NCBI GenBank assembly: GCA_024516035.1
Contig: CM044959.1
Location: forward strand, 8,995,665-9,059,664
DNA length: 64,000 bases
Origin: Bactericera cockerelli
Lineage: Eukaryota; Arthropoda; Insecta; Hemiptera; Triozidae
Reading direction: 5' to 3'
The position numbers and the translations under genes were made by a program. Positions 1,095 to 60,180 of this stretch are shown here, in pieces. The notes below the pieces were generated by a model that saw only the letters and a program-made list of their open reading frames with translations, did no database searches and was not told the origin of the DNA. Position 1 is the stretch's first letter; the number at the start of each line of letters is the position of its first letter.

Positions 1095-1770
1095 TATACA
1101 TATTAAATTTATCCACGGATATTGTTTTGAGCACTCATTAACTAGTCTACTATTCATCTGACAAGGAAAAGATTGAAGAAGAAGGAGATAGAGAGAGATA
1201 GAGTGAGGAAATATTTAGCTTCAACTTGCTTTAATGATGAAGAGGGACGGAAGGGAGGGTGCAGACTCACCTGCAGTGAATAGTGATGGACTGAAGGGGT
1301 TCAGAGAAAGAGAGAGAGAGAGAGAGAGCGGAGGAGAGGGGAAATTTTTCGGTTAAACTCTGATTTCGTACTTTCACAATAATATGGTACCTACCAATTT
1401 CCGAATTTTCACTTTCTTATTGCTGTTCACTCGATGTAGACATTCCTTGTGACTGTGAATAACGAAAATTTCGAATTCTCTTTAATTGAGCGCTTCACCC
1501 TACCTGTACTTGTCTTTTAACTTATTATTTTATAATACTTTTTGCTTGTGTTTGTATAAATGAATAATAATTTGTGAATATTATTAAAAAAAATAGTTAA
1601 TAAAATTTCATTAGATACTACATATCACTTTGCTTTTCCTTTTCTCTCTGTCCTTGTGTTTTGTTTACTTGTGTTTAAATTTGAATCAGTGTAGTTAATT
1701 TTTGGTGATTAAATTATTCAAGAAAGGAAAGTTAAGAAGAAACTAGATCAAGAAAGAAAGGGTGGAAGAC
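1095..1770. other. Upstream region of the Helitron ORF
   Basis: It holds a GA tract (about 1307-1328) and an AT-rich stretch just before the ORF. No promoter or transposon 5' end could be fixed by eye. A Helitron 5' end should lie here or further upstream. Confidence 0.4.
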
Positions 1771-4700
1771 ATGGCTGTGGTTTCATTCGTGGTTCCCGGA
1801 GGGCGCAGCCAAGCTGATGCAGTGTTTGGTAAATATAGGAACTCTCAGTGTACCAGTAACTCATTTACTGCACTTTGTTTTGCTAATAGCTTTAATGTAG
1901 GTTTGTGGTCAGAAACCACAATGGATGAAATTTTAAGAGAGGGCCACAATCTTCATGTTAGGTGTTTTCCCGATAGAAAGTACAAAGAATTCAATTACTT
2001 AGCTTTTGAGGATATTGAGAAAGACTTGAATAGTGTGTCAGTGTTTGGTGAAAAGTTTACTTGTGTATCTGTACTGGACGAATGTTGTATTTCTATGCTC
2101 CAGGGTCAGATGCCTTACGCTCTCGATTCTGCAGTAGAGATGTTTTTCTCCACCTACAGTCATGGTATTTTTACAATAGGGGATATTTCATTAGCGCTGT
2201 TCAGGGATGAGACAGGATACTGTATATATGATCCTCACTCGTGTAATCCTCGCACAGGTCTGAGTGCTCACAAAGGTGTATCTGTGGTTATCGTTTGTCC
2301 GGACATCAGAAGTGTGAAATGTATGCTAAAAAAGAAGTTTGAAAAGAATAGGTCGCGTTTCTTGATTTCAGCTGTTTTGTTTGAGAGAGATCTACATGAG
2401 GGTCCAAATCATACAGATGTTCAGTGTTATGATGTGCCCATGGTATTGAGTGAAGCAGTGCTTGATACAACTAGTCCGTCGAGTACAGAAACAGTGATAG
2501 TTCCTATGGTGTCATGTGATGTTTTGATTAATGAAGGTTATAATACTATAGGGATCGAATTAGCAAAGAGTAACATTGAGGAAAATATAGAGTTGCATGA
2601 GAGTTATATTGAAGGAGTAGGGAGTTGTGAGACATATGTACCTGTATCATTTGAGATGTTAATTCATGAAGGAACTGGAAGTATTCGATGTACTGGAGCC
2701 ATGGAGGAACCATTAATGTCCACTGATAGTGATGTCACCATGCTATCGTGTGAGAAAATTATTGATGTTCAAAGGGAATTCAATGTAGAGATGGAAAAGG
2801 ATTATGAAATGAGTATATTGAATAATGAACATTTGGAATCAAGTGGGGACATTGTGGGAGACATGGGTATTATACTTATGAATAATGAACATTGTGAGAG
2901 TTATGAGCATGTCATGATGGAAGAAGATACAAATGAATATTTTAAGACTAGTTTAAATGGTTCAGTTGAAATAGAGAAGGAATCCGTTGCATTTATAAAG
3001 GTCAAAAAGAAGAAAGCAAGACGAGTGAAAATGTCCGAAAAAAAAAGAAGACAAATGATAAAAGAATCCATGAAAAAGAAACGTGAAGATGAAGAATATT
3101 CTAAGAGAGAAAATTCTAGGAATATAGAAAATATGAAGAAGAAACGCGAAGATGAAGAATATTCTAAGAGAGAAAATTTTAGAAATATAGAAAATATGAA
3201 GAAGAAACGCGAAGATGAAGAATATTCTAAGAGAGAAAATTCTAGGAATAGAGAAGACAAGAAAAAGAAACGTGAAGATGAAGAATATTCTAAGAGAGAA
3301 AATTCTAGAAATATAGAAAATATGAAGAAGAAACGCGAAGATGAAGAATATTCTAAGAGAGAAAATTCTAGGAATAGAGAAGACAAGAAAAAGAAACGTG
3401 AAGATGAAGAATATTCTAAGAGAGAAAATTCTAGAAATATAGAAAATATGAAGAAGAAACGCGAAGATGAAGAATATTGTAGAAAAGAAAAGTCTAGGAA
3501 TAGAGAAGACAAGAAAAAGAAACGTGAAGATGAAGAATATTCTAAGAGAGAAAATTCTAGAAATATAGAAAATATGAAGAAGAAACGCGAAGATGAAGAA
3601 TATTGTAGAAAAGAAAAGTCTAGGAATAGAGAAGACAAGAAAAAGAAACGTGAAGATGAGGATTACCGTGAGAAAGAAAAGTCCAAGGATACAGAAAGCA
3701 AGAAAAAGAAACGAGAAGATCCGGAGTACCTTGAAGAAGAAAGAAAAAGGCATGCTGAAAAAATGCAGGAAAAACGAAATAATTTTGAATACCGGGAGCA
3801 GGAAAATACCAGGAGAAGGTCAAACATATGTTCAGAGAGAGGAAATGATATTTTAAAATTTAGGCATAATTTTTATAATCAACTAAATAACAGGAAAAAT
3901 ACAGATGACTCACAAATTTCAAAAAATAAATTAAAATTAATTGCAGCCAGAAATGAAAACGCTGAGTTTGTTTGTTGTTGTTGTGAGGGTTTATTTTTTA
4001 AACATTCAGTTAGTTCCTTAAACTTAGAAGCTATAAGAGAAAAATTGAGTTATTGTGAAGAGGAGTTTTTAGAATTTAAGTTTAAAATTTGTAACGTGCA
4101 ATCTGGATATATGTGTAGTACATGTAAAAGTAATATAATAAAGGGTAGGGTACCAAAATTGGCAACAAGTAATGGGTTAAAGTTTGTTGAAATTCCTGAA
4201 TGTCTTAAAGACATCTCACCTTTAGAGTCAAGGCTATGTTCTCCGTATCTTCCTTTTATGTGCATAAAACCAATGAAATCATTTTCATTGAATGGTCAGT
4301 TAGGTTTGCGAGGATCCGTTGTGAATATCCCTATTGATGTAAATGAGTGTTTGACTGTGTTACCCAGAATGTTTGATGAAATGTCTACTATTCAAGTTCA
4401 GCTAAAAAGATATTTTCAGCACAAGTCGTATTATATGTTTGAGACTATTAGGCCTGCAGCTGTGTGTGATGCATTACGTTATTTAAAAGATACGCCTTTA
4501 TACTTAAAACATGGAATTAGTATTGATGAAAATTATTTAGAAAGTTATTCAGGGACGCAGGCAGTCATTGACTTTGTACTTCAGGATAGTGATTTAGAAG
4601 CAGGAGAGCCTAGGAACAATACTGTTGAACCAACTGAGGAAGAAATAGAGTCAGATGAGGATACAGGTGAGCAAGTAATGCTCTTAGATAGGAATACAGT

Positions 4701-7700
4701 AGCTCAAGATCAAGAAAATATTCACATAATAGCACCTGGACAAGATAAAAATCCTGTAGCACCTCAATTTATAGAAAATTATGACGAGTTATGCTTTCCA
4801 AAAATATTCTGCGGTTATGGTTTCAATTTATCTAAAAATATTACTTATAATGATAGGGCTAAGTCCGAGTGCAGGCGCGTGGATCGTAGGTCTTGTAATC
4901 CAGAAAGACTTTTATTTATGGCAAAACAAAAAATTGAGCGGCAAATAACGTCTAGCATTAATGTATGTTTAAGAAAAACAAAAAAGGGTTCATGCAGTAT
5001 GAAGGCATCTGATTTAGTAAATCAGGACTTTGTTACAGGTTTGATAACATATGATTCAGGGTACTCTTTTACTAAGCAAATAAGAAATTCACCTGCGTTT
5101 TTAGAAATAAAAAAGAAAGAACTATTAGCAACCATTCGAACATTAGGGAAACCGACATTTTTTTTGACATTATCTGCTGCAGAAACTAGGTGGCCAGAAC
5201 TATTAGCTTGTTTAGCGCACATGGATTCGGGTGAAAAAATTAGTTTAAAAGATGCATTGGAAATGAGCAATTTTGATAGGACAACTTTGATTAGAAATGA
5301 CCCTGTCACTTGTGCGAGGTACTTTGATCATAAAATTGGAAACTTCATGAAACTTATTAGATCACCTAATTCCATTTTTAAACATTATCATGTAGAAGAT
5401 AGCTATCAACGCGTAGAATTTCAGTTGCGAGGATCTCCACATGAACATATGTTTTTATGGCTTAAGGACGCCCCAAAGTTCGATGTAGATGAGCCGGATT
5501 CTTTAGGAAAAGTCGTAGAGTTTATAGATGAATTTATTACTTGCAAGTTTGATGATAATAACCCTTACATAGATCTTCAAAAACACAAACACACTCACAC
5601 TTGCTATAAGTCAGATGCACAGAAAAGACAACACAAGTGTAGGTTCAACATTCCGATAGCATGCATGCCAGACACTAGAATATTGCTTCCATTACCTGAA
5701 GAAGACAAAACAGAAAAAATGAAGGAAGATTTCAAAAAAATAGAAGGATTAATGAAACATTATTATATTAAGTTAGAGGATAGGTCATTTGAGTATGTAT
5801 TAGGAAAGCTAGAAATGAATGAGGATGATTATATTTTAGCGATTCGCAGCTCTCTAAAACAAGTCAGGGTATTCTTAAGAAGAGGCACGCAAGAAGTAGG
5901 TATTAACGCGTACAATAAGGATATTTTATGTTTATTCGAGGCAAATATGGATATTCAGTTTGTTTTGGAGGAATATGGATTAGCATCCTATATTGTAAAT
6001 TATATTAGTAAATGTGAAGCTGGGTTGTCAAAATTACTTAGGAATGTTTCGAAAGACATAGAGTCTGGAAATGTTAGTTTAAAGGAGAAATTTAGAAAAA
6101 TTGGTAACGTGTTTTTGAATGGATCATTGATGTCTGCGCAGGAAGCCGTGTATTATTTGTTGTGTATGCCTGTATCAAAAAATAGTAGGCGGGTAATATT
6201 TATAAATACTGGTCCGCAAGCAGAAAGAGTTAGGATGTTAAAAAGTAAGACAAAATTGAGTGCTTTGCCAGGTGATTCCAACGATGTGTTTGAGAATAAT
6301 ATTATTGAGAAATATTGTAAAAGAAAAAAATCGCTAGAGAATATTTGCCTAGCAGAATATGCAGCTTGCTATCATAGGGTTTATAAGGATATCGATGATA
6401 GGAATGATGATGAGGAAACGGATGTGGAAGAATTAAAACTTAGGAAGAAACATGCAATTCTTAGGTTTATTAGGTACAAGTTAGCAAAGGATTCCGAAAA
6501 TTATTACCGCGAAAGACTTCTTCTTTGCTTACCGTTTAGAAATGAATTAACAGAAATTGAAGGTCTTGAAAACTATGAAGAGGTATACCAAGCAAAATTC
6601 GATATTGTGAGTAGAAATGAGGATCAATTCGGTTTGAAATCAGTAGTGGACGAAAGGTTAGAAAATGCTATTGTAGAGGTTGTGAATGAGGAACAAGAAT
6701 CACAGGATGATGCGAGGGAATATGAGGTAGATCCTATGTATCAGGTGGATGTTTTTGATCAGGGAGGAATAGGACGGGGGAGCAAAGAAAATACAAAAAC
6801 TCGGTATACTATACCTAAAAGGGTTTCACCTCAGGCGCTACAAGAAATGCTCAGTAAATTAAATTTAAAGCAGGGGAAATTCGTGAATTATATATTAGAT
6901 AGATTTCAGACAGATGAACTTCCTGTTAGAATTTTTTTAAGTGGATCAGCAGGAGTAGGCAAAAGTACTGTTATTAATGCTATCTATCAAGCTGTCACAA
7001 ATTATTTCGATGAGCTACCGGGTGGGAATAATGATAAAATTGTTGTGTTATTAACAGCTTATTCAGGTAAGGCAAGTTACCTTATAGGGGGGGTTACTTT
7101 ACATACAGCATTAGCTTTACCTGTTAGTCAGTTTGGTGGGAGGATGCCTGAGTTAAGTGCGGATATTGCAAACACAATTAGGGAAAATTTGAGTCATACA
7201 AAACTGTTGATAATAGATGAAATTTCATTCATAGGAAGTACATTTTTCAGTAGAATTGATTGTAGGTTAAGGCAAATATTCGGGAAAAATGAAACTTTTG
7301 GGGGACTAAGTGTACTTGTGGTAGGGGATCTATTTCAATTGCCTCCTTTATTCGATAGGCCAATATTTCAATTTAGTATGAATGAATTTGGTAACTTGGT
7401 AGATAGAAATCCTCTTTGGAATGAGTTTTCTTTTTACGAATTAACAGAGGTAATGAGGCAAAGAGAAGATTTAGAATTTGTAGGAATTCTAAATAATATT
7501 GCGATAGGACAAGTAAATGAGAACGATGTTAGGATTATTAATACTAGGTCTGTTAGTGCAAACAATGTACCGCGCGAAGCTATTAGATTATTCAATACGA
7601 ATGCTGCTGTAGATAAATATAATAAAGAAACACTAGATGGACATGTTGGATTAGAATATAGGTACACCGCGAAAGACTTTGTTGTAGGTAATGCAACTGA

Positions 7701-8358
7701 TATTCAGAAGAGAAGGGTTTTAAATTGTGTTAAATCGATGCCACATAGGGATACGAATGGACTCTGGAATGAAATAAGATTAAAAATAGGAATCAAATAC
7801 ATGCTTACATCAAATGTTGACGTAAGTGATGGTTTGTGTAATGGAGGGACTGGGATTCTTGAAAATATTGTATTTAAACCGGGTACCACTGAGCCACTGA
7901 GGTTGTTTTTAAAATTCGATAAACTAGAAGTAGGCAAGAAGAAAAGGCAAGAACAGGAAAATTACATGTTTAGAGAAAATATCAACAAGGAATTAACACC
8001 GATAGATAGGATTAGTTGCGTTCTAAATTATTCAAATAAGTTAGAGTTTCAAGTAGTGCGGGAACAGTTTCCAGTAACATGTGCAGAAGCTATTACAATA
8101 CATAAGAGTCAGGGACAAACGTATGATCAGGTTGTAATAGATTTCAATAATTGTCCAGGACTTACGAAACAGATGTTGTATGTAGCATTAAGTAGAGTGA
8201 CTAGGTTATCAGGTTTATTTTTAATAGGAAAGTTCCCAGATAAGAAAGAGAAAAGAAAAGGAGGAAGAGCAAGAAGTAAAAACGCTGATACAGAAGTAGT
8301 TGATCCTGTAATGATGGAAATGGAAAGGTTACGCCAAGAAAAACAATTAGATTTATAA
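1771..8358 (+). CDS. Helitron transposase (Rep/helicase) with N-terminal cysteine-protease-like domain
   Basis: An intact 2,195-codon ORF encodes the rolling-circle transposase of an autonomous Helitron-class DNA transposon. The ATG at 1771 is preferred over an in-frame GTG nine bases upstream because it has G at -3 and +4. Residues 1-180 resemble a papain-fold deubiquitinase of the peptidase C76 type: QCTSNSF with putative nucleophile Cys27, and YDPHS with Asp154 and His156. Residues about 434-690 are a charged repeat. Residues about 730-900 carry CxxC pairs (CCCC, CSTC) and a GNVVNIP-like stretch typical of DUF6570. The HUH nuclease follows, with FFLTLS and GSPHEHMFLW (His1224, His1226) and the paired tyrosines YIVNYISK (Tyr1407, Tyr1411). 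The C-terminal Pif1-like helicase has Walker A GSAGVGKST (Lys1731), Walker B LLIIDEIS (Asp1816, Glu1817), GDLFQLPPL, and HKSQGQT near the end. All catalytic residues looked for are present, so the element could be active. The Helitron class is secure; the protease assignment is by-eye similarity. Confidence 0.93.
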   Translation: MAVVSFVVPGGRSQADAVFGKYRNSQCTSNSFTALCFANSFNVGLWSETTMDEILREGHNLHVRCFPDRKYKEFNYLAFEDIEKDLNSVSVFGEKFTCVSVLDECCISMLQGQMPYALDSAVEMFFSTYSHGIFTIGDISLALFRDETGYCIYDPHSCNPRTGLSAHKGVSVVIVCPDIRSVKCMLKKKFEKNRSRFLISAVLFERDLHEGPNHTDVQCYDVPMVLSEAVLDTTSPSSTETVIVPMVSCDVLINEGYNTIGIELAKSNIEENIELHESYIEGVGSCETYVPVSFEMLIHEGTGSIRCTGAMEEPLMSTDSDVTMLSCEKIIDVQREFNVEMEKDYEMSILNNEHLESSGDIVGDMGIILMNNEHCESYEHVMMEEDTNEYFKTSLNGSVEIEKESVAFIKVKKKKARRVKMSEKKRRQMIKESMKKKREDEEYSKRENSRNIENMKKKREDEEYSKRENFRNIENMKKKREDEEYSKRENSRNREDKKKKREDEEYSKRENSRNIENMKKKREDEEYSKRENSRNREDKKKKREDEEYSKRENSRNIENMKKKREDEEYCRKEKSRNREDKKKKREDEEYSKRENSRNIENMKKKREDEEYCRKEKSRNREDKKKKREDEDYREKEKSKDTESKKKKREDPEYLEEERKRHAEKMQEKRNNFEYREQENTRRRSNICSERGNDILKFRHNFYNQLNNRKNTDDSQISKNKLKLIAARNENAEFVCCCCEGLFFKHSVSSLNLEAIREKLSYCEEEFLEFKFKICNVQSGYMCSTCKSNIIKGRVPKLATSNGLKFVEIPECLKDISPLESRLCSPYLPFMCIKPMKSFSLNGQLGLRGSVVNIPIDVNECLTVLPRMFDEMSTIQVQLKRYFQHKSYYMFETIRPAAVCDALRYLKDTPLYLKHGISIDENYLESYSGTQAVIDFVLQDSDLEAGEPRNNTVEPTEEEIESDEDTGEQVMLLDRNTVAQDQENIHIIAPGQDKNPVAPQFIENYDELCFPKIFCGYGFNLSKNITYNDRAKSECRRVDRRSCNPERLLFMAKQKIERQITSSINVCLRKTKKGSCSMKASDLVNQDFVTGLITYDSGYSFTKQIRNSPAFLEIKKKELLATIRTLGKPTFFLTLSAAETRWPELLACLAHMDSGEKISLKDALEMSNFDRTTLIRNDPVTCARYFDHKIGNFMKLIRSPNSIFKHYHVEDSYQRVEFQLRGSPHEHMFLWLKDAPKFDVDEPDSLGKVVEFIDEFITCKFDDNNPYIDLQKHKHTHTCYKSDAQKRQHKCRFNIPIACMPDTRILLPLPEEDKTEKMKEDFKKIEGLMKHYYIKLEDRSFEYVLGKLEMNEDDYILAIRSSLKQVRVFLRRGTQEVGINAYNKDILCLFEANMDIQFVLEEYGLASYIVNYISKCEAGLSKLLRNVSKDIESGNVSLKEKFRKIGNVFLNGSLMSAQEAVYYLLCMPVSKNSRRVIFINTGPQAERVRMLKSKTKLSALPGDSNDVFENNIIEKYCKRKKSLENICLAEYAACYHRVYKDIDDRNDDEETDVEELKLRKKHAILRFIRYKLAKDSENYYRERLLLCLPFRNELTEIEGLENYEEVYQAKFDIVSRNEDQFGLKSVVDERLENAIVEVVNEEQESQDDAREYEVDPMYQVDVFDQGGIGRGSKENTKTRYTIPKRVSPQALQEMLSKLNLKQGKFVNYILDRFQTDELPVRIFLSGSAGVGKSTVINAIYQAVTNYFDELPGGNNDKIVVLLTAYSGKASYLIGGVTLHTALALPVSQFGGRMPELSADIANTIRENLSHTKLLIIDEISFIGSTFFSRIDCRLRQIFGKNETFGGLSVLVVGDLFQLPPLFDRPIFQFSMNEFGNLVDRNPLWNEFSFYELTEVMRQREDLEFVGILNNIAIGQVNENDVRIINTRSVSANNVPREAIRLFNTNAAVDKYNKETLDGHVGLEYRYTAKDFVVGNATDIQKRRVLNCVKSMPHRDTNGLWNEIRLKIGIKYMLTSNVDVSDGLCNGGTGILENIVFKPGTTEPLRLFLKFDKLEVGKKKRQEQENYMFRENINKELTPIDRISCVLNYSNKLEFQVVREQFPVTCAEAITIHKSQGQTYDQVVIDFNNCPGLTKQMLYVALSRVTRLSGLFLIGKFPDKKEKRKGGRARSKNADTEVVDPVMMEMERLRQEKQLDL
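3070..3825 (+). repeat. 63-bp in-frame tandem repeat inside the Helitron ORF
   Basis: Twelve 21-residue units of the form KKKREDEEYSKRENSRN plus IENM or REDK. Alternation of the two endings makes a 126-bp higher-order unit. The middle units are nearly identical at the DNA level; the last two or three diverge. Twenty-one residues equals three heptads, so a long charged helix or coiled coil is likely. Two long minus-strand open frames over this stretch are shadows of the repeat. Confidence 0.9.
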
Positions 8359-8385: not shown

Positions 8386-8416
8386 GTATTAAAAACAACA
8401 ACAACAAACAACTCAA

Positions 8417-9350
8417 CTCTTGCATGTCCTGTCTCTTTCTACTTATATCTCATAATTATTTCTTTGGTCCTGTCAGAGCGTCCAGTAGGAAATCGGAAGG
8501 TTACCCTACTACTTTGGCAGGGTCGACTCTTGCATGTCCTGTCTCTTTCTATTTATATCTCATAATTATTTCTTTGGTCCTGTCAGAGCGTCCAGTAGGA
8601 AATCGGAAGGTTACCCTACTACTTTGGCAGGGTCGACTCTTGCATGTCCTGTCTCTTTCTATTTATATCTCATAATTATTTCTTTGGTCCTGTCAGAGCG
8701 TCCAGTAGGAAATCGGAAGGTTACCCTACTACTTTGGCAGGGTCGACTCTTGCATGTCCTGTCTCTTTCTATTTATATCTCATAATTATTTCTTTGGTCC
8801 TGTCAGAGCGTCCAGTAGGAAATCGGAAGGTTACCCTACTACTTTGGCAGGGTCGACTCTTGCATGTCCTGTCTCTTTCTATTTATATCTCATAATTATT
8901 TCTTTGGTCCTGTCAGAGCGTCCAGTAGGAAATCGGAAGGTTACCCTACTACTTTGGCAGGGTCGACTCTTGCATGTCCTGTCTCTTTCTATTTATATCT
9001 CATAATTATTTCTTTGGTCCTGTCAGAGCGTCCAGTAGGAAATCGGAAGGTTACCCTACTACTTTGGCAGGGTCGACTCTTGCATGTCCTGTCTCTTTCT
9101 ATTTATATCTCATAATTATTTCTTTGGTCCTGTCAGAGCGTCCAGTAGGAAATCGGAAGGTTACCCTACTACTTTGGCAGGGTCGACTCTTGCATGTCCT
9201 GTCTCTTTCTATTTATATCTCATAATTATTTCTTTGGTCCTGTCAGAGCGTCCAGTAGGAAATCGGAAGGTTACCCTACTACTTTGGCAGGGTCGACTCT
9301 TGCATGTCCTGTCTCTTTCTACTTTTACCTCATAATTACTTCTTTTGTCC
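8417..9350 (+). repeat. 110-bp satellite, eight and a half copies
   Basis: Eight near-identical 110-bp units begin CTCTTGCATGTCCTGTCTC and end in TTTGGCAGGGTCGA. A ninth, truncated and diverged copy follows (9297-9350). Each unit carries the same 83-codon open frame by periodicity; these are not genes. The position directly after the transposase suggests that the array belongs to the Helitron 3' region, where tandem repeats are common. Confidence 0.92.
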
Positions 9351-10374
9351 TATCAGTGCGTTGATCTTTTTTAGAGTTAATTTTTTTTTATATCAATAAT
9401 TTCAAAACTTTAATAGTTAAATTGAAACTTTAAAGTTTTGACTTTATTGAGCAATCATTATCGTGTTGTGATCAGTGATTGTCTTAGACTGTATCGAATA
9501 AAATTTTCTTATTCAATGCTATGTCTAACTGATGATTACTAGCAAGTATGAAACAATCACCGATCATTCATATTTACAACGACAACATTTTCATCATAAC
9601 TACCATCTAGTAACTAGTCCACACTTAAGATGAGTGTAATTGTCATGACTAAAGAGGAAGTTATTAATGATTTTTGTTATACGAGACATCAAGTAACTGA
9701 ATAAACAATTTCATACCTGCAAAAGGTATAACAGAAAAGTGAGATAAGACAGTATCATATTTTTTGTGTCTATTTTTAAACTTAGTGTGATTCAAAGATA
9801 TATTCCATGGATAGCACACATATTTTTACTACTATACAAAAACCTAATAATTTTGAGGTTTGAGGTGCTAATCAAGAAATTGTCATTAATTTGTCCCATT
9901 GCTTGGTCTGATTCCCATTCCTTATTGGATAAGGAAAGTCGTGTGATGTTTACACCAGATTTTTTTTTATTTGTGTTTTATAACTGCTAATCTCATAGAC
10001 AAAATTTATTATTCTAGTTAATAATGTTCTTGAGATATTGAGCAAAACGTTCATCAAAAGTGTTTTTGTCAAAAAAGTGACACTTGGGTTAATGTGGCAG
10101 AAAATACGCGATATTATAAATTCATGTATTTGCCAAGACACTTCTAAAACAGTTTAGTTTGTTCAAATTGGACACACCGTTCAAGAGATAGGTTTGTGAA
10201 AATTTCGAAGATATTGAAAATATCAGGTCAAGTGTAAACTTACGAATAAATGTCGCCATTTTGTAACTCCTTAAGAGATTTTTTTAAATTTTGAAGTGAA
10301 GCTTGCTGGTGGCAATAAGAGCCTTCAAGAATGAATTGTAACAAAATTTTGCATACCTGGTCATACTTGAAGGG
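9351..10374. other. AT-rich region, possible Helitron 3' part
   Basis: No exon or recognised repeat was seen. The Helitron 3' terminus (a hairpin followed by CTRR in the classical type) was not located. Confidence 0.4.
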
Positions 10375-13841: not shown

Positions 13842-13912
13842 CGTCGAAAGTGCTGCTTTTAGAACAATATAATTATCTTTTTCTACATTTATGTTCTTAA
13901 TTTTGAAGTGTA

Positions 13913-22435: not shown

Positions 22436-22608
22436 TTTTCCCCTCTCTCTCTCTCTCTCTTTCTCTATATATATATATCTCTCCCTCTCTTTCTTTCTCT
22501 CTCTCGCTTTCTCTTCCTTTATTTTTCCTTACATTATTTATCTCTCTCTTTCTCTCTACCTAGTTCTCTCTCTTTATTTCTATCCCTCGCTCTCTTTTAA
22601 TCTCTCTC
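22436..22608. repeat. CT-rich microsatellite
   Basis: Interrupted (CT)n with a short AT run. Long apparent reading frames through it are low-complexity artefacts. Confidence 0.85.
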
Positions 22609-24535: not shown

Positions 24536-24827
24536 CTCTCTTTCTCCATCTCTCTCTCTCTCTATTTATCTCTCTCTCAATTTATCTCTCTCTCTATCTC
24601 TCTCTGTCTCTATCTCTCTCTGTCTCTCTCTCTCTATCTTCTGCTCGTGTTGCTGAGCTTTATATGAACTCTTTTCATAACAAATGTGTCTCTTCGGATT
24701 AACACTCAACTTTTTTTTCATTATAGTCAAGGGAATAGGTGAGAGAGAGAGGGATGGAAAGAGAGAGAGAAAGGGATAGAGAGAGAAAGCAGAGAGGAAT
24801 AGAAAGAAGAGAGAGAGAGATGGAGAC

Positions 24828-24864
<37 letters not shown>

Positions 24865-24936
24865 TAGAAAGAGAAAAACATAGAGAGAGAAGAGAAGGTG
24901 AAAAGAGGGAATAAAGGTAAAGGAGGAAAGGATGGG

Positions 24937-24990
<54 letters not shown>

Positions 24991-25030
24991 GCAAAGACAG
25001 AGAAAGAGAAAAAGAAAAAGAGAGGAAGAA
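24536..25030. repeat. CT tract facing a GA tract
   Basis: (CT)n at 24536-24640 and (GA)n at 24737-25030 are separated by about 95 bp of ordinary sequence. The two tracts are complementary and could fold into a long hairpin. Apparent Leu/Ser- or Arg/Glu-rich reading frames are artefacts. Confidence 0.85.
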
Positions 25031-32400: not shown

Positions 32401-32757
32401 AAATACCATCATGAACTGGCCCACTGATTTTGGCTTCGAAGATTTGTGCAAACCACCTGAAAATCTACACAATCTAAATGTACCAAAAAAGCCAAATTGG
32501 ATTCGACCAAAGAAAGTTTGTGAAGTTGGATCCACGCTTTACGTTTAAAGAGCCTCTCGGTGTGAAGAAAGAGACCCAAGTGTCTTGGATTGATACATAT
32601 GAACCGAAAGTTATTCCGACTTGGTTGTCCATCCCAAAAACTGGAAGAACTTGAAACTGCCTTGAGAAACCAAGATGAGAAAATATTGCTCTTGACTGGC
32701 CCCAGTGGCTCGGTAAAACAGTCAGCTTGAAATGTATTTGCAAGAAATTGGGCATAG
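32401..32757 (+). CDS. RAD17-like checkpoint clamp loader, first coding exon (frame broken)
   Basis: The product would be RAD17, the AAA+ subunit that loads the 9-1-1 clamp at damaged DNA in the nucleus. The exon is bounded by TTTTTTCCAG (ending 32400) and AG|GTAAGT at 32757/32758, with ATG at 32411 (MNWPTDFGFEDL). Homology needs three forward frames: W-I-D-T-Y-E-P-K (like WVDKYKP of RAD17), then DLVVHPKKLEELETALRN, then ILLLTGPSG with a P-loop expected as GxxGSGKT, then CKKLGI. Frame changes fall at A runs near 32513-32515, 32607-32609 and 32636-32640, and at the GG at 32712-32713. Each looks like one missing base. Either the assembly has homopolymer errors or this is a pseudogene; the conserved splice sites and codons favour assembly errors. 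The exon ends in phase 1 and joins the 37179 exon in phase. Confidence 0.82.
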
Positions 32758-33057
32758 GTAAGTTTAATTAATGAAGAAAAAAAATTTCAATATTTTAATA
32801 ATCTGAGTGCAAATAGTGCTATGGTATTTTAATTTAATGTGGGTGTAGTAGTATTACAATGCTTCATTCTTACAAGAAATAAATAAATAAGTCACTTTTT
32901 CACCTACTACAAATTGGGCTTTTTAATAAGGCTATTTCGTAAAAGAAATCTCCTATATTGTGTTCGTCATAGATGACGTCGCAGAGGCGTAGGGGAAATA
33001 GCACGTTTAGAATCTTTCTTTCAAAAAATATGATACAGAAACGCTTTTAAATCTATT
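32758..33057 (+). other. Start of the RAD17-like intron
   Basis: GTAAGT donor, then AT-rich DNA with no other feature. Confidence 0.6.
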
Positions 33058-33288
33058 GATTTCTTTGCCTTTGCTGTTGAAACTGTTGGTTCATGGGCAG
33101 ACGAGACTTTTAACTCCATTGATAAAATTGGAAAATTGTTAACAAAGAAACAGGAGAACTGTCGAGTGAAGAATTTCATGATACAAAAAATTTCTCTCGC
33201 CATACAGAGAGGAAATATCACGTTAATCACGTTTGTCTTGGGTACCATTCCAAGTGGTGTGAAGTTTGAAGAAATATTTTATTTGTAA
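33058..33288 (+). pseudogene. LINE ORF2 C-terminal fragment, decayed
   Basis: An open stretch to TAA at 33286 encodes FAFAVETVGSWADETFNSID, then KIGKLLTKK and ISLAIQRGN...LGTIPSG. The VETxGxW and IQRGNxxxxLGTxPS motifs recur downstream of reverse transcriptase in many invertebrate LINE-like ORFs. No RT core lies upstream. It sits inside the RAD17-like intron in sense orientation. The related fragment at 54424-54605 supports a shared family. Confidence 0.5.
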
Positions 33289-34225
33289 AAAAAATATAGT
33301 AAGAAGTTGTCTAAAAAAAAAATATAGTAAAACATCTATTAATTTACGTTCCTTTGAAATTAAATTCACAAAATCAATAGACTAAATTCAACACAAAAGC
33401 AAGAGCGCTGAACTATAGAATTTTGTCAACTTTGTAGATTTTTGTGGATTTTCGTCAACTTTGTATTTTGAGAGAATTCATTTCTGCTTCTTGCAAAAAG
33501 GAAAATTCGAACAGCTTGAGGCTGTTGAACTTTTATTTCCTTGTTGCACTCACTCATATTCTCGGTAATGGTTTTCTGATTGAGTATGAAAAAGTGGCAG
33601 AGAGGAATGGGTGAGACACCCTCCTGGAGCTGATTGGAAACTTTTTCAACTTTGTGTTGATTTTATGTCACACTCATCAGCGGAAATCTGTGCAACTAGG
33701 ACAAGTTGTTTGTTTTGAGAGAAATGAGTTGACTGTTGATGTAAAGTTTTCTTGATCGTAATAATATCTCAATTGATATTATTGATGTTGAAGAATCATG
33801 AAAAAGAAAGTCACACAGAAGCATTGTCGTTTCAACCCTTCAAACTATGTCTCTGTTAGTTTTAAATTTAGTTAACTGTGCTTTAAAATTATTAAAGTAA
33901 TTATATTAATAAAAGTTTAAAAATAGTTCCTATTATTGGAAAAGGGTACATTTGAAAAATAACATTTGAAATTGACGTTGAAAAAAAAAAAGTTCTTCCA
34001 AGGCTAGTGTAAGTTTTCTTTTTTTTATGGGTTTATTAAAAAAAAAAAAAAAAAAATGAAAAAAATAGAGAAATTGTATACATGTTGTATACCTCTAAAT
34101 CTAAGTTGAAAGTATTATTAACCGACCTTAGTTCGTTTTTTAAGCTTGATGGATGAGGTAGCGGCGTACTTGATATTGGAGGTTGTTGTTGTTACATTAT
34201 TCTTGGAATTGATAATCTTTATTCC
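33289..34225. other. Intron, no feature recognised
   Basis: AT-rich intronic DNA with A-runs. No exon-like segment was seen. Confidence 0.5.
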
Positions 34226-34305
34226 ATTTATTCCTTCTTTATTCCAGGTAACAAAAAATATGTTAACCTAATTCCTTCTCTATGCCAGGAATCAAATATA
34301 ACAAC
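34226..34305 (+). repeat. Degenerate outlying units of the splice-acceptor minisatellite
   Basis: Two decayed units (ATTCCTTCTTTATTCCAGG and AATTCCTTCTCTATGCCAGG) lie upstream of the main array and are separated from it by inserted SINE C sequence. Confidence 0.75.
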
Positions 34306-34307
34306 CC

Positions 34308-34672
34308 ATAAAATAATAATACTCTTTAGTGGAAGGTAACCACCAGACGAGGTTAATGCTCAAAGCATTTTCTACCACCTAACCCTCAGCGTCTCATTAT
34401 TATGTGGTTACAAACTCAAATTAATGAGGAAAAATTCATGCACTGGGTGGGATCCCTAGGCTACCTGGATTACGAGGCTAGCGCGTTAACCACTTGACTA
34501 CCAGTAAACCAGGCGAGGTTAATGCTCAAAGCATTTTCTACCACCTTACCCTCAGAGTCATTATTATGTGGTTACAAACTCAAATTAATGAGGAAAAATT
34601 CATGCACTGGGTGGGATCCCTAGGTTACCTGGATTACCAGGCTAGCGCGTTAACCACTTGACTACCAGTGCA
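34308..34672 (-). mobile_element. Two tandem SINE family C copies sharing one deletion
   Basis: Copies at 34308-34505 and 34506-34672 both read CACTGGGTGGGATCCCTAGG. They lack the TCGAACCAACGG segment that contains the pol III B-box in other family C members. The shared deletion shows that the pair arose by tandem duplication of one defective copy. Confidence 0.8.
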
Positions 34673-34778
34673 GAAATAAGGGTGATAAGAAGAGACAATT
34701 ACTCAGGGGAGTGTGAGACAATCTAATGGCCAGGTCTACATACACATTCTTTGACACCTAATTATTTCTCCATTCCAG

Positions 34779-37178
34779 GAATGAAGGAGTGGATAACCCA
34801 ATTCCTTCTGTATTCCAGGAATCAAGGAGTGGATAACCCAATTCCTTCTGTATTCCAGGAATCAAGGAGTGGATAACCCAATTCCTTCTGTATTACAGGA
34901 ATCAAGGAGTGGACTAATTCCTTCTGTATTCCAGGAATCAAGGAGTGGATAACCCAATTCCTTCTGTATTCCAGGAATCAAGGAGTGGATAACCCAATTC
35001 CTTCTGTATTCCAGGAATCAATGAGTGGATAACCCAATTCCTTCTGTATTCCAGGAATCAAGGAGTGGATAACACCATTTCCTTCTGTATTCCAGGAATC
35101 AAGGAGTGGATAACCCAATTCCTTCTGTATTCCAGGAATCAAGGAGTGGATAATCCAATTCCTTCTGTATTCCAGGAATCAAGGAGTGGATAACCCAATT
35201 CCTTCTGTATTCCAGGAATCAAGGAGTGGATAACCCAATTCCTTCTGTATTCCAGGAATCAAGGAGTGGATAACCCAATTCCTTCTGTATTCCAGGAATC
35301 AATGAGTGGATAACCCAATTCCTTCTGTATTCCAGGAATCAAGGAGTGGATAACACCATTTCCTTCTGTATTCCAGGAATCAAGGAGTGGATAACCCAAT
35401 TCCTTCTGTATTCCAGGAATCAAGGAGTGGATAATCCAATTCCTTCTGTATTCCAGGAATCAAGGAGTGGATAACCCAATTCCTTCTGTATTCCAGGAAT
35501 CAAGGAGTGGATAACCCATTTCCTTCTGTATTCCAGGAATCAAGGAGTGGATAACCCAATTCCTTCTGTATTCCAGGAATCAAGGAGTGGATAATCCAAT
35601 TCCTTCTGTATTCCAGGAATCAAGGAGTGGATAACCCAATTCCTTCTGTATTCCAGGAATCAAGGAGTGGATAACCCAATTCCTTCTGTATTCCAGGAAT
35701 CAAGGAGTGGATAACCCAATTCCTTCTGTGTTCCAGGAATCAAGGAGTGGATAACCCAATTCCTTCTGTATTCCAGGAATCAAGGAGTGGATAATCCAAT
35801 TCCTTCTGTATTCCAGGAATCAAGGAGTGGATAACCCAATTCCTTCTGTATTCCAGGAATCAAGGAGTGGATAACCCAATTCCTTCTGTATTCCAGGAAT
35901 CAAGGAGTGGATAACCCAATTCCTTCTGTGTTCCAGGAATCAAGGAGTGGATAACCCAATTCCTTCTGTGTTCCAGAAATCAAGGAGTGGATAACCCAAT
36001 TCCTTCTGTGTTCCAGAAATCAAGGAGTGGATAACCCAATTCCTTCTGTATTCCAGGAATTAAGGAGTGGATAACCCAATTCCTTCTGTATTCCAGGAAT
36101 CAAGGAGTGGATAACCCAATTCCTTCTGTATTCCAGGAATTAAGGAGTGGATAACCCAATTCCTTCTGTATTCCAGGAATTAAGGAGTGGATAACCCAGT
36201 TCCTTCTGTATTCCAGGAATCAAGGAGTGGATAACCCAATTCCTTCTGTATTCCAGGAATCAAGGAGTGGATAACCCAATTCCTTCTGTATTCCAGGAAT
36301 CAAGGAGTGGATAACCCAATTCCTTCTGTATTCCAGGAATCAATGAGTGGATAACCCAATTCCTTCTGTATTCCAGGAATCAAGGAGTGGATAACACCAT
36401 TTCCTTCTGTATTCCAGGAATCAAGGAGTGGATAACCCAATTCCTTCTGTATTCCAGGAATCAAGGAGTGGATAATCCAATTCCTTCTGTATTCCAGGAA
36501 TCAAGGAGTGGATAACCCAATTCCTTCTGTATTCCAGGAATCAAGGAGTGGATAACCCAATTCCTTCTGTATTCCAGGAATCAAGGAGTGGATAACCCAA
36601 TTCCTTCTGTGTTCCAGGAATCAAGGAGTGGATAACCCAATTCCTTCTGTGTTCCAGAAATCAAGGAGTGGATAACCCAATTCCTTCTGTGTTCCAGAAA
36701 TCAAGGAGTGGATAACCCAATTCCTTCTGTATTCCAGGAATTAAGGAGTGGATAACCCAATTCCTTCTGTATTCCAGGAATCAAGGAGTGGATAACCCAA
36801 TTCCTTCTGTATTCCAGGAATTAAGGAGTGGATAACCCAGTTCCTTCTGTATTCCAGGAATCAAGGAGTGGATAACCCAATTCCTTCTGTATTCCAGGAA
36901 TCAAGGAGTGGATAACCCGATTCCTTCTGTATTCCAGGAATTAAGGAGTGGATAACCCGATTCCTTCTGTATTCCAGGAATTAAGGAGTGGATAACCCAA
37001 TTCCTTCTGTATTTCAGGAATCAAGGAGTGGATAACCCAGTTCCTTCTGTATTCCAGGAATCAAGGAGTGGATAACCCAATTCCTTCTGTATTCCAGGAA
37101 TCAAGGAGTGGATAACCCGATTCCTTCTGTATTCCAGGAATCAAGGAGTGGATAACACGATTTCCTTCTGTATTTCAG
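34779..37178 (+). repeat. 40-bp minisatellite of about 60 tandem 3' splice sites in the RAD17-like intron
   Basis: The unit is GAATCAAGGAGTGGATAAC plus CCAATTCCTTCTGTATTCCAG. The first 19 bases copy the start of the exon at 37179. The remainder is a pyrimidine tract ending in CAG, and GGATAAC is branch-point-like. From the first boundary (34779) to the true exon (37179) is exactly 2,400 bp, that is 60 units on average. Most are 40 bp, some are 41 bp (AACACCATTTCC or AACACGATTTCC types) and one has an internal deletion near 34913. Marker variants (AATGAGTGG followed by the 41-bp unit) recur near 35020, 35300 and 36341, spaced 281 and 1,041 bp, which indicates block duplication. Confidence 0.96.
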
Positions 37179-38357
37179 GAATCAAGGAGTGGATAACGTC
37201 CTTGAGCAAGACACCCGAGTACGACAGCGTAGAGTTCACTGACCCCAGCCTCTACTCCTCCACCAGCCAGGACTTTGAGCAGTTCCTGGTCCGCAGCAGT
37301 AGACCCCGCGTCACCAGTCGCTTCTCCCGGGACATCGTCCTGGTCAAGGACGTCCCCAACATCTTCTACAAAGATGCCTCCTTGCTGCACGACACCCTCA
37401 ACAAATTCGCCTCCACACTGAAAACCACCCTCGTTTTTATCCTGAACGACGAGAATTTGATTTACAAGCTATTCCCCGCCAATGTCATTGGTCAGTTCAA
37501 AATAAATCATGTAAAATTCAACCCTATCAATGACACAGGACTGATCAAAAACCCTGCAGAACATCCTAGCGAAGGAACGTATAGTTGCGAGTAACGACAC
37601 GGTCATCAGTATTATTCAGAACTGCAACGGGAATCTTTCGTTTGCTATTAATCAGCTGTATTTTGTTACTGTTAAGAAAGAGAAGGTGACGGGGAAACAG
37701 ACGAAGCTAACAGTGAAAATGCTCAAAGATAGCAAAGTGAGGAACCGCTCGTTGGATAAAAATAAACAAGTTAGTTATTTTCAAATCATAGGACGCGTCC
37801 TGTATCCTAAAAAAGAACCCGTAGAATGCAGTGCGTTTTACAAGCTCAAGAATCCAAGATTGGAATACAAGACGAAAGATCTTTTCAAATTCAAACACAA
37901 TCCGTCCGATTTGGTTGAGGAGTTCATAACCCAACCTAGCTCAACTGTGGACATTCTCCAAGAAAATTATGTTAGCAAGTTCAACAGCATCAAAGACATG
38001 TTGGACTCTGCCGTCATGTTCAGCAATATCGATGAGTACAGCCACAAGTTCTCTAGTCAAAGCAATAGTCACATGAACACGGAAATGTATTTGCATCTCG
38101 CCATTAGCAGCCTCATGAAGAATGATAACGTGCTCACGAGCTATGCTCCCGTTCAGAGGTCCACCAAACATAGACTACCCGACAGAAACGAAACTAATAA
38201 GTTGGTCAATGAATTGTTCGGCAATCTGTTTCCGCATGAGACCAGCTTGAATATTGTGTTTGATATTTTGTCCATCGTGAAACAAAGCAGGAATTTCATG
38301 AATTTGGAGTTCGGCATGAACCAGGTCAAATTTATTCACGATTTTACGTTTAAATGA
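37179..38357 (+). CDS. RAD17-like checkpoint clamp loader, terminal coding exon
   Basis: It begins after TGTATTTCAG with GIKEWITS (the split Gly completes the previous exon; RAD17 proteins have a comparable GIxxxEWI). Recognisable RAD17 features follow: DIVLVKDVPNIFY at the Walker B position (Lys where the human protein has Glu), LVFILNDENLIYKLFP and ISIIQNCNGNLSFAINQLYF. Next come YFQIIGRVLYPKK, VEEFITQPSSTVDILQENYV and a helical C-terminal part ending FIHDFTFK at TGA 38355. One frame change at the A run 37547-37551 (one extra A fits best, giving LIKTLQNIL) splits the exon into two open frames. With the first exon the protein would be about 510 residues, shorter than the roughly 680 of human RAD17. 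The role in the DNA-damage checkpoint is inferred from the family. Confidence 0.86.
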
Positions 38358-41531: not shown

Positions 41532-42125
41532 CAGATCTATAAATACGGACACATGCCTCTTGAGTTAAAGGTAGACTCACATCTTCGTTCGCAATGATAA
41601 AAACATTAATGACCCCCTAATCATACTCCACATGTGAATTTAATAACTAATTACTCGCTGTTGTGTCAGCATAAGTCAGCATCAAAAGCGCCAGTCAGCA
41701 TGAATGGCGCCTCACAAGCTCTTAATTAATAGCGAGTCAGAAGAGGAAGAACTTGGAACTACCGAAAGCCAGAGGTCGAATGAAAGAGAGAGAGGGAGGA
41801 AGGGAGGGAGAGAGAGATAGAGGGAAAGAAATGGAGAGAGAGAGAAAGAGAAAGGGAGAGAGAGAGAGAGATAGAGGGAAAGAAATGGGGAAAGGGAGAA
41901 AGAGAGAGATAAATAAATAGAGGGAAAGAAATGGGGAGAGGGAGAAAGAGAGAGAGAGAGAGAAAAATAAATAGAGAGAGAGAGAAAGAAAGAGAGATAA
42001 ATAAATAGAGAGAGAGAGATAGAGGGAAAGAAATGGGGAGAGGGAGAAAGAGAGAAAATAAATAGAGAGAGATAGATAGAGGGATAGAATTGGAGAGAGA
42101 GAAAAAGAGAGATATATATATATAA
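41532..42125. other. GA-rich minisatellite
   Basis: From about 41784 to 42125: (GA)n with recurring blocks of GGGAAAGAAATGGGGAGAGG and ATAAATAAATAGAG. Confidence 0.7.
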
Positions 42126-45999: not shown

Positions 46000-46037
<38 letters not shown>

Positions 46038-46317
46038 TCTCTGTCTCTGTCTCTCTCATATTTTCTTATTCGGTCTCTGTCCTCTCTTCTTATAAGCTCT
46101 CTCTTTCTCTTTCTCTCCCTCTCTCTCTCTCTCGCTCTCCCTCCCTCTATCACTCCTCTCTCCCTCACCCTCTCTCTCTCTCTCTCTCTCTCCTCCCTTT
46201 CCTCCCCTGATATAATAGATTTTTCTGCTCTGTAATTCGAAAAGTACAGGAGGCTTTTAGTAATGCTGCGCTACCCACAAAAACTGTACTTCTCTCCCGT
46301 GACTTTTATTCTTGTGA

Positions 46318-46353
<36 letters not shown>

Positions 46354-46423
46354 ACCTCTCTCTTCCTCCCTCTCTCTCTCTTTTTCTTTCTCTCTCTCTC
46401 CCTCTCTTTCTCTCCCTTGCTCC

Positions 46424-46467
<44 letters not shown>

Positions 46468-55217: not shown

Positions 55218-55615
55218 CCTCAATAGAAAATGGTGGACACCATGCTAATAGCATATATGGTGTCCGCCATTTTCTATTGAGGAAATAGCATATATGGTGT
55301 TTTGAGGAAAAAACAATGCTAATAGCATATATGGTGTCCGCCATTTTCTATTGAGGAAATAGCATATATGGTGTTTTGAGGAAAAAACAATGCTAATAGC
55401 ATATATGGTGTCCGCCATTTTCTATTGAGGAAATAGCATATATGGTGTTTTGAGGAAAAAACAATGCTAATAGCATATATGGTGTTTTGAGGAAAAAACA
55501 ATGCTAATAGCATATATGGTGTCCGCCATTTTCTATTGAGGAAATAGCATATATGGTGTTTTGAGGAAAAAACAATGCTAATAGCATATATGGTGTCCGC
55601 CATTTTCTATTGAGG
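55218..55615. repeat. Dimeric 37/74-bp minisatellite with an inverted first copy
   Basis: Two 37-bp half-units begin AATAGCATATATGGTGT. One continues with CCGCCATTTTCTATTGAGG, the other with TTTGAGGAAAAAACAATGCT. Full 74-bp units start near 55244, 55318, 55392, 55503 and 55577; one half-unit is missing near 55466. At 55218-55243 part of the unit is inverted (CCTCAATAGAAAATGGTGGA). Confidence 0.9.
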
Positions 55616-55804
55616 AAGTGCTTCACATAAGATGCCCAGAGAGCATTGGGAGTTGTTTACGTTTTAATTGTTGTCTGTGTTTATATCTAGTGGCACTTTA
55701 GTATAGCTACCCACATTCATCTCACCCAGCCTGGGTAGGGTGTGGCGTTAAGGCGTTGTACTTGCAATCAAAGATTAAGCAAATATTTAGTTAATGTATG
55801 TATG

Positions 55805-60000: not shown

Positions 60001-60180
60001 AAGAGAGAGAGAGGGAGAGAGAGAGAGAAGGAGAGAGAGAGGAAGAGAGAGAGAGAAAGAGAGAGAGACGAAGGGAGAAAGAGAGAGAGAGGGAGAGAAA
60101 GAGAGAGAGAGATAGTTAGAGAGAGAAGAAGAGAGAGAGATGAGAAAGAGAGAGAGATATGGAGAGAGAGTAAGGGGGAA
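60001..60180. repeat. GA microsatellite
   Basis: Interrupted (GA)n. Reading frames on both strands are artefacts. Confidence 0.85.

Follow-up and report, generated by a model that had tools for sequence, protein, structure and literature searches.

Results

The RAD17 gene and its splice junction

The window analyzed here, a 64,000-nucleotide stretch of the genome of the psyllid Bactericera cockerelli, contains a gene that the initial annotation had called RAD17-like and that, judged by a Rad17 Pfam match, a match to the human RAD17 structure and psyllid orthologues along the protein, is the RAD17 gene of a psyllid. Its parts are:

32411..32757, + strand, RAD17 exon 1 from start codon to donor; the frame changes four times
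32758..37178, + strand, intron with donor G/GTAAGT, its 3' end taken up by the acceptor array, delimited by sequence and by gap-free alignment of the junction
37179..38357, + strand, last RAD17 coding exon; one frame change; stop codon at 38355-38357

The start of exon 1, MNWPTDFGF, aligns with MHWPTNFGF of Cacopsylla (P0002). One exon 1 piece gave a weak match to the Rad17 P-loop (E 0.0093, under the Pfam cut-off), and the remaining two pieces of this exon gave no Pfam match. The first part of exon 2 matched PF03215 (Rad17; E 3.5e-05, 24.3 bits, just over the cut-off of 23.8) as well as human RAD17 chain 7z6h_B (E 2.8e-09). Searching with the whole protein, with X at the frame breaks, found eight proteins, the psyllid orthologues with E values down to 2.1e-219; the best three of the eight are all from psyllids, namely Diaphorina citri (79% identity), Cacopsylla melanoneura (65%) and Cyamophila willieti (68%). 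A match of the C-terminal piece 37545-38354 to DUF1248 (E 0.0076, under the Pfam cut-off) was set aside as noise because the psyllid orthologues align along the product of this piece.

Across the splice the protein reads KKLGIG/IKEWITS here and in Diaphorina (P0001), and KKLNIG/IKEWITS in Cacopsylla (P0002), with no gap. The spliced junction is gap-free against P0001, P0002 and P0005; the psyllid orthologues spanning it are the Diaphorina and Cacopsylla proteins, the Cyamophila record beginning further on. This conservation bears out the proposal that the real acceptor is the last, 61st copy in the array, at 37178/37179. An exact 21-base pattern had no match in virus and prokaryote contig collections, where an insect gene is not expected.

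Because of five frame changes, four in the 347-bp exon 1 and one in exon 2, this RAD17 copy does not present an intact open reading frame, and it may consequently be dead or locally mis-sequenced, a point to which we return below.

Anatomy of the acceptor array

The 3' end of the intron is occupied by a tandem array with the following elements:

34779..37178, + strand, main array of 60 units of 36-41 bp, each with exon-derived bases and a 3' splice site
34899..34934, + strand, 36-bp unit, the sole carrier of CTAAT among the 60 units
35731..36158, + strand, 428-bp block, copy A, identical to 36412-36839
36412..36839, + strand, 428-bp block, copy B, identical to 35731-36158
37138..37178, + strand, last unit, 41 bp, with the real acceptor at its end and the U-richest tract of the 61

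Tandem Repeats Finder reported a single array at 34772-37197 (period 40, 60.7 copies, 96% matches, score 4487), and cutting it acceptor by acceptor yielded 60 head-to-tail units between 61 acceptors (34778 to 37178), in accordance with the earlier count of about sixty tandem copies directly upstream of the acceptor. Fifty-five units are 40 bp long, four are 41 bp and one is 36 bp; they fall into 18 types, the commonest of which accounts for 25 of the 60. The downstream exon opens with the 19 bases GAATCAAGGAGTGGATAAC (37179-37197), and, as had been claimed for the unit, these recur at its start: exactly in 39/60 units and with at most one mismatch in 59/60, the 36-bp unit being the only one to deviate further. 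The commonest unit thus comprises 21 intron bases and 19 exon bases. Units end in a pyrimidine tract followed by CAG, so that the description of a 3' splice site in every unit holds throughout the array.

The order of the unit types is itself repetitive. Four runs of identical units recur (10, 8, 8 and 7 units), the corresponding exact DNA repeats within the array measure 428, 373, 360 and 322 bp, and a non-overlapping 10-unit run was reached in none of 2000 shuffles of unit order (maximum 7). Such block repeats are the trace expected from unequal exchange, and both the internal block duplication and the growth by duplication with block exchange that had been proposed for the array agree with this non-random order. 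The AATGAGTGG marker occurs in three units that start at 35015, 35296 and 36337 and therefore begins at 35020, 35301 and 36342, within one base of each of the positions given before (about 35020, 35300 and 36341). Identical core units (25/60), block duplications, the diverged copies at 34199-34288 described below and a last unit that forms a type by itself together correspond to the pattern of concerted evolution in a core, with the edges exempt.

Older copies and a SINE-like pair at the upstream edge

The region just upstream of the main array carries three further features:

34199..34288, + strand, roughly two older, degenerate unit copies, local alignment score 91
34308..34669, no strand assigned, tandem pair of a SINE-like dispersed repeat, between the older copies and the main array
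34759..34778, + strand, region of the CTAAT branch-point motif with the first acceptor

None of 300 shuffles scored above 57, against 91 for the older copies, one of which includes CTAAT at 34268-34272. The 59 bases just 5' of the first acceptor were considered as an extra degenerate unit and rejected, as 11 of 300 shuffles reached their score. The SINE-like pair (164-bp period, two copies in the tandem repeat search) belongs to a repeat of about 210 bp with no fewer than eight locations in the window; the seven others are near 13912, 15408, 22833, 23872, 46697, 50584 and 53663, and their copies share 73-86% identity with the one inside the RAD17 intron. A search for tRNA genes in 34200-34780 found none; the repeat is called SINE-like for its dispersed copies and for general features of such elements. 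The array is thus larger and older than first described, with a homogenized core and an old upstream edge; the older copies, the SINE-like pair and the five exon frame breaks had all been absent from the initial annotation.

Other features of the window

Further upstream in the RAD17 intron lies an 84-codon open stretch (33034-33288, + strand) with no Pfam match, which looks like the end of a retroelement reverse transcriptase. At 1747-8358 (+ strand) there is an unbroken 2203-codon Helitron-type ORF with matches to Helitron_like_N, PIF1 helicase and DUF6570 and a Herpes_teg_N-like match at its N-terminus; the nearest relative of its helicase region was found in Cacopsylla (77% over the part searched), in keeping with the psyllid origin of the window. 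A 63-bp tandem repeat is located inside this ORF (3069-3720), and 58 bases past its end begins an array of a 110-bp unit (8416-9361, 8.6 copies, 99% matches), which includes a pyrimidine-rich stretch and then CAG. Tandem repeats nested in one another, with unit lengths of 37, 74, 111 bp and above, occupy 55242-55617, the 74-bp repeat stretches at 55242-55485 and 55469-55617 showing 100% matches. CT/GA-rich simple repeats are numerous (22443-22514, 24536-25024, 41782-42122, 46003-46467 and 60002-60170).

Consequences of choosing each acceptor

Joining the donor in turn to each of the 61 acceptors and reading the product showed that 59 of them lead to a stop within 15-59 codons. The exon is entered in frame from two sites only, 37178 and 37097, and the orthologous protein results from 37178 alone. 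The second site is:

37096..37097, + strand, AG of the only upstream frame-keeping acceptor, adding 27 residues

The frame is kept at 37097 owing to the 41-base length of the last unit; neither of the two psyllid orthologues covering the junction contains the 27-residue insert.

Splice signals at the first and last acceptor

AG ends every unit, preceded by 12-14 pyrimidines among 17 bases. Within the 45 intron bases before each acceptor, 59/61 sites, the last one included, lack a YTNAY branch-point motif; only the first acceptor and that of the 36-bp unit have one, in both cases CTAAT. As CTAAT is also found in the older copy at 34268, we infer that it was present in the first units; a T-to-C change in this motif would then have been spread through the array by homogenization. 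According to linear scanning, the spliceosome proceeds from the branch point to the first AG, which means that only a branch point within the last 41 bases can serve 37178, and the best candidate there appears to be the exon-derived GGATAAC.

The last tract is distinguished by its U content, with 10 U among the 17 positions from -20 to -4, compared with 8 at 53 sites and 9 at seven sites, the first acceptor having 9. Its predicted openness ranked 2, 1 and 1 of 61 in three folding settings. The last AG, by contrast, was among the less open ones (rank 53, 54 and 55), and the last site ranked 5, 4 and 1 of 61 when tract, AG and branch region were combined. Among the 61 sites, the first acceptor had the most open AG under every setting; its tract ranked first in one setting and second in two. 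Openness of the last tract decreased from 0.47 (native) to 0.32 when the commonest unit was swapped in, but barely when the array was continued in place of the exon (0.44), so that the effect is caused by the last unit's own bases. The U-rich, less paired tract of this unit may reflect selection or merely the ancestral state. With its AG predicted to be among the less open ones and the first acceptor about as open, the openness of the last tract lends weak support to a preference for the last copy; several of these measures place the first, unproductive acceptor on a par with the last or above it. If the gene is alive, avoidance of the first acceptor is a real question.

Discussion

Relation to known boundary repeats

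Minisatellites at intron-exon boundaries have been described in amphioxus as 'mirage' minisatellites for the globins BflGb6 and BflGb9, where they reportedly do not disturb splicing (PMC3087553, PMC3902484); the latter report also names Adh and troponin C as further cases and likens duplications in PGBD5 to them (PMC3902484). In these cases, minisatellite-like tandem repeats extend across an intron-exon boundary; the BflGb6 repeat consists of the 3' end of an intron and the 5' part of the exon, as in the RAD17 array, and many units carry splice signals, with a homogenized core from which the cluster boundaries are excluded. The psyllid unit likewise spans the RAD17 intron-exon boundary (19 exon plus 21 intron bases), and its copies carry potential cryptic splice signals, with YTNAY in only 2/61. 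As far as the testable features go, namely unit span, splice signals and homogenized core, we would therefore class the psyllid array as a mirage-type minisatellite. Differences concern copy number (60 units versus 6 and 3 in two BflGb6 haplotypes) and unit size (40 bp versus 150-160 bp in the amphioxus globins and 10-72 bp in Adh3), and the host is a psyllid with a broken frame rather than a cephalochordate. With a copy number far above that of the globin case, it looks like an extreme case of a known kind of boundary repeat. The amphioxus Adh3 repeat is reportedly the subject of a paper by Canestro (2002).

Other systems share single aspects. The minisatellite of human IFI6 (6-16) is said, in work by Turri (1995), to provide multiple splice donor sites; it resembles the psyllid array as a minisatellite across a splice junction that offers many similar sites, but these are donors, whereas those in RAD17 are acceptors. 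In NAGNAG tandem acceptors, neighboring AGs 3 nt apart lie at one splice site. There, too, several nearby AGs compete, although with 3-nt spacing in place of the complete 40-nt modules of the RAD17 array. For human paralogues, new introns are said to form from internal tandem repeats located at exon-intron boundaries (PMC2812944), and intron gain by duplication is the Rogers model as cited in PMC3087553. Common to these cases and to RAD17 is that tandem duplication makes extra splice signals at exon boundaries; in RAD17 a pre-existing intron was lengthened and no new intron is seen, and there are 60 repeats as opposed to 4 on average in the human paralogues. No boundary minisatellite of an insect was seen among the titles and opening lines of abstracts in the literature searched, in which subscription journals were thinly covered.

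Origin of the array and alternative explanations

We think it rather probable, on the strength of the unit composition, block order and conserved junction, that the locus holds a mirage-type minisatellite which grew by tandem duplication and unequal exchange and that productive splicing occurs at 37178/37179. A short segment running from the intron end through base 19 of the RAD17 exon would have been duplicated in tandem, and unequal exchange would then have copied blocks of units up to the present 60, the upstream copies now being intron. Provided that the gene is transcribed and spliced across the array, donor 32757 would be joined to the last copy on the real exon, a choice presumably favored by the U-rich, less paired tract, and the copied exon sequence GGATAAC would now act as the branch point. 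Most likely the array is a tolerated by-product rather than a control device.

The opposite idea, raised in the initial annotation, is that the array acts as a splicing rheostat or decoy; copy number or competing acceptors would then set the productive fraction of RAD17 mRNA. Since 59/61 acceptors give truncated products, competition would indeed lower RAD17 output, and the array contains neither a unit without AG nor one of double length, though the sites had been located by their AG. Variation among the 55 units of 40 bp is, however, confined to 8 of 40 columns, so that AG would escape it by chance with P = 0.64 and CAG with P = 0.50; acceptor signals are thus not retained beyond chance, selection on the acceptors is left unsupported, and nothing in the CAG invariance points to a rheostat. 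RNA structure as a masking device was likewise rejected. Relative to shuffles that break up the repetition, folding was slightly better for single units (z -1.7, 11/200 shuffles as good), and z was -3.2 for a 140-nt array stretch, -1.9 for the 140 nt surrounding the last site and -4.6 for 601 nt surrounding the array end (20 shuffles); when shuffled units were themselves arrayed in tandem, 114 of 500 such controls folded at least as well, and the strong folding therefore follows from repetition and not from a special structure of the unit. Our analysis of the sequence found no evidence for a function of the array. The absence of YTNAY from 59/61 acceptors and the lack of splicing disturbance reported for the amphioxus analogues (PMC3087553, PMC3902484) speak against a rheostat and also modify the statement that the spliceosome must choose among about 61 sites: such a choice is possible, but its necessity does not follow. 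We accordingly consider it improbable that competing acceptors divert RAD17 transcripts to truncated forms and that array length tunes the amount of the checkpoint protein; if they did, unequal exchange altering array length would change the dose of a DNA-damage checkpoint protein.

More serious, though still rather unlikely in our view, is the possibility that this RAD17 copy is a recent pseudogene and the array unconstrained debris that takes no part in productive splicing. The five frame changes in the exons suggest as much, all the more as sequence quality looks good elsewhere: the 2203-codon transposon ORF is unbroken despite 147 homopolymer runs of at least 4, compared with 27 such runs in the two RAD17 exons. 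Amino-acid changes private to this lineage also outnumber those of D. citri, with 37 versus 23 (Cacopsylla as outgroup), 22 versus 14 where Cacopsylla and Cyamophila agree and 5 versus 1 where Cacopsylla and Homalodisca agree, and they are slightly less conservative (mean BLOSUM62 0.68 versus 1.00; negative scores in 8/37 versus 2/23). On the other hand, 29/37 of the private changes score 0 or higher, frame changes aside, the 505 residues read piecewise are free of stops, and GC at third codon positions of exon 2 is raised (0.74 and 0.55 versus 0.27-0.43 at the other positions). Inspection of the bases by eye placed most breaks at or next to short homopolymer runs, which also attract long-read errors, and the location of four of the five in exon 1 is what poor polishing of one stretch would produce. 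Errors of another sort would be at issue if a shorter array had been misassembled into the present copy number or block order. Arrays of near-identical units pose difficulties for assembly, and that of amphioxus BflGb6 seems to have been assembled wrongly in the draft genome (PMC3087553). An artefact is nonetheless very improbable here, given 18 unit types in non-random order and block repeats whose limits fall at different units; because degenerate copies flank the main array, some array very probably exists.

Implications

If the gene is transcribed and intact, the mirage-type array would constitute a natural test of spliceosome choice among 61 near-identical acceptors within one intron. Nearly all wrong acceptor choices would betray themselves by their frame, and many by unit variants; cDNA reads would thus reveal the copies used. 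The RAD17 array would extend mirage minisatellites, reported from lancelets, to an insect, and it would suggest a route by which copied exon sequence may become a branch point.
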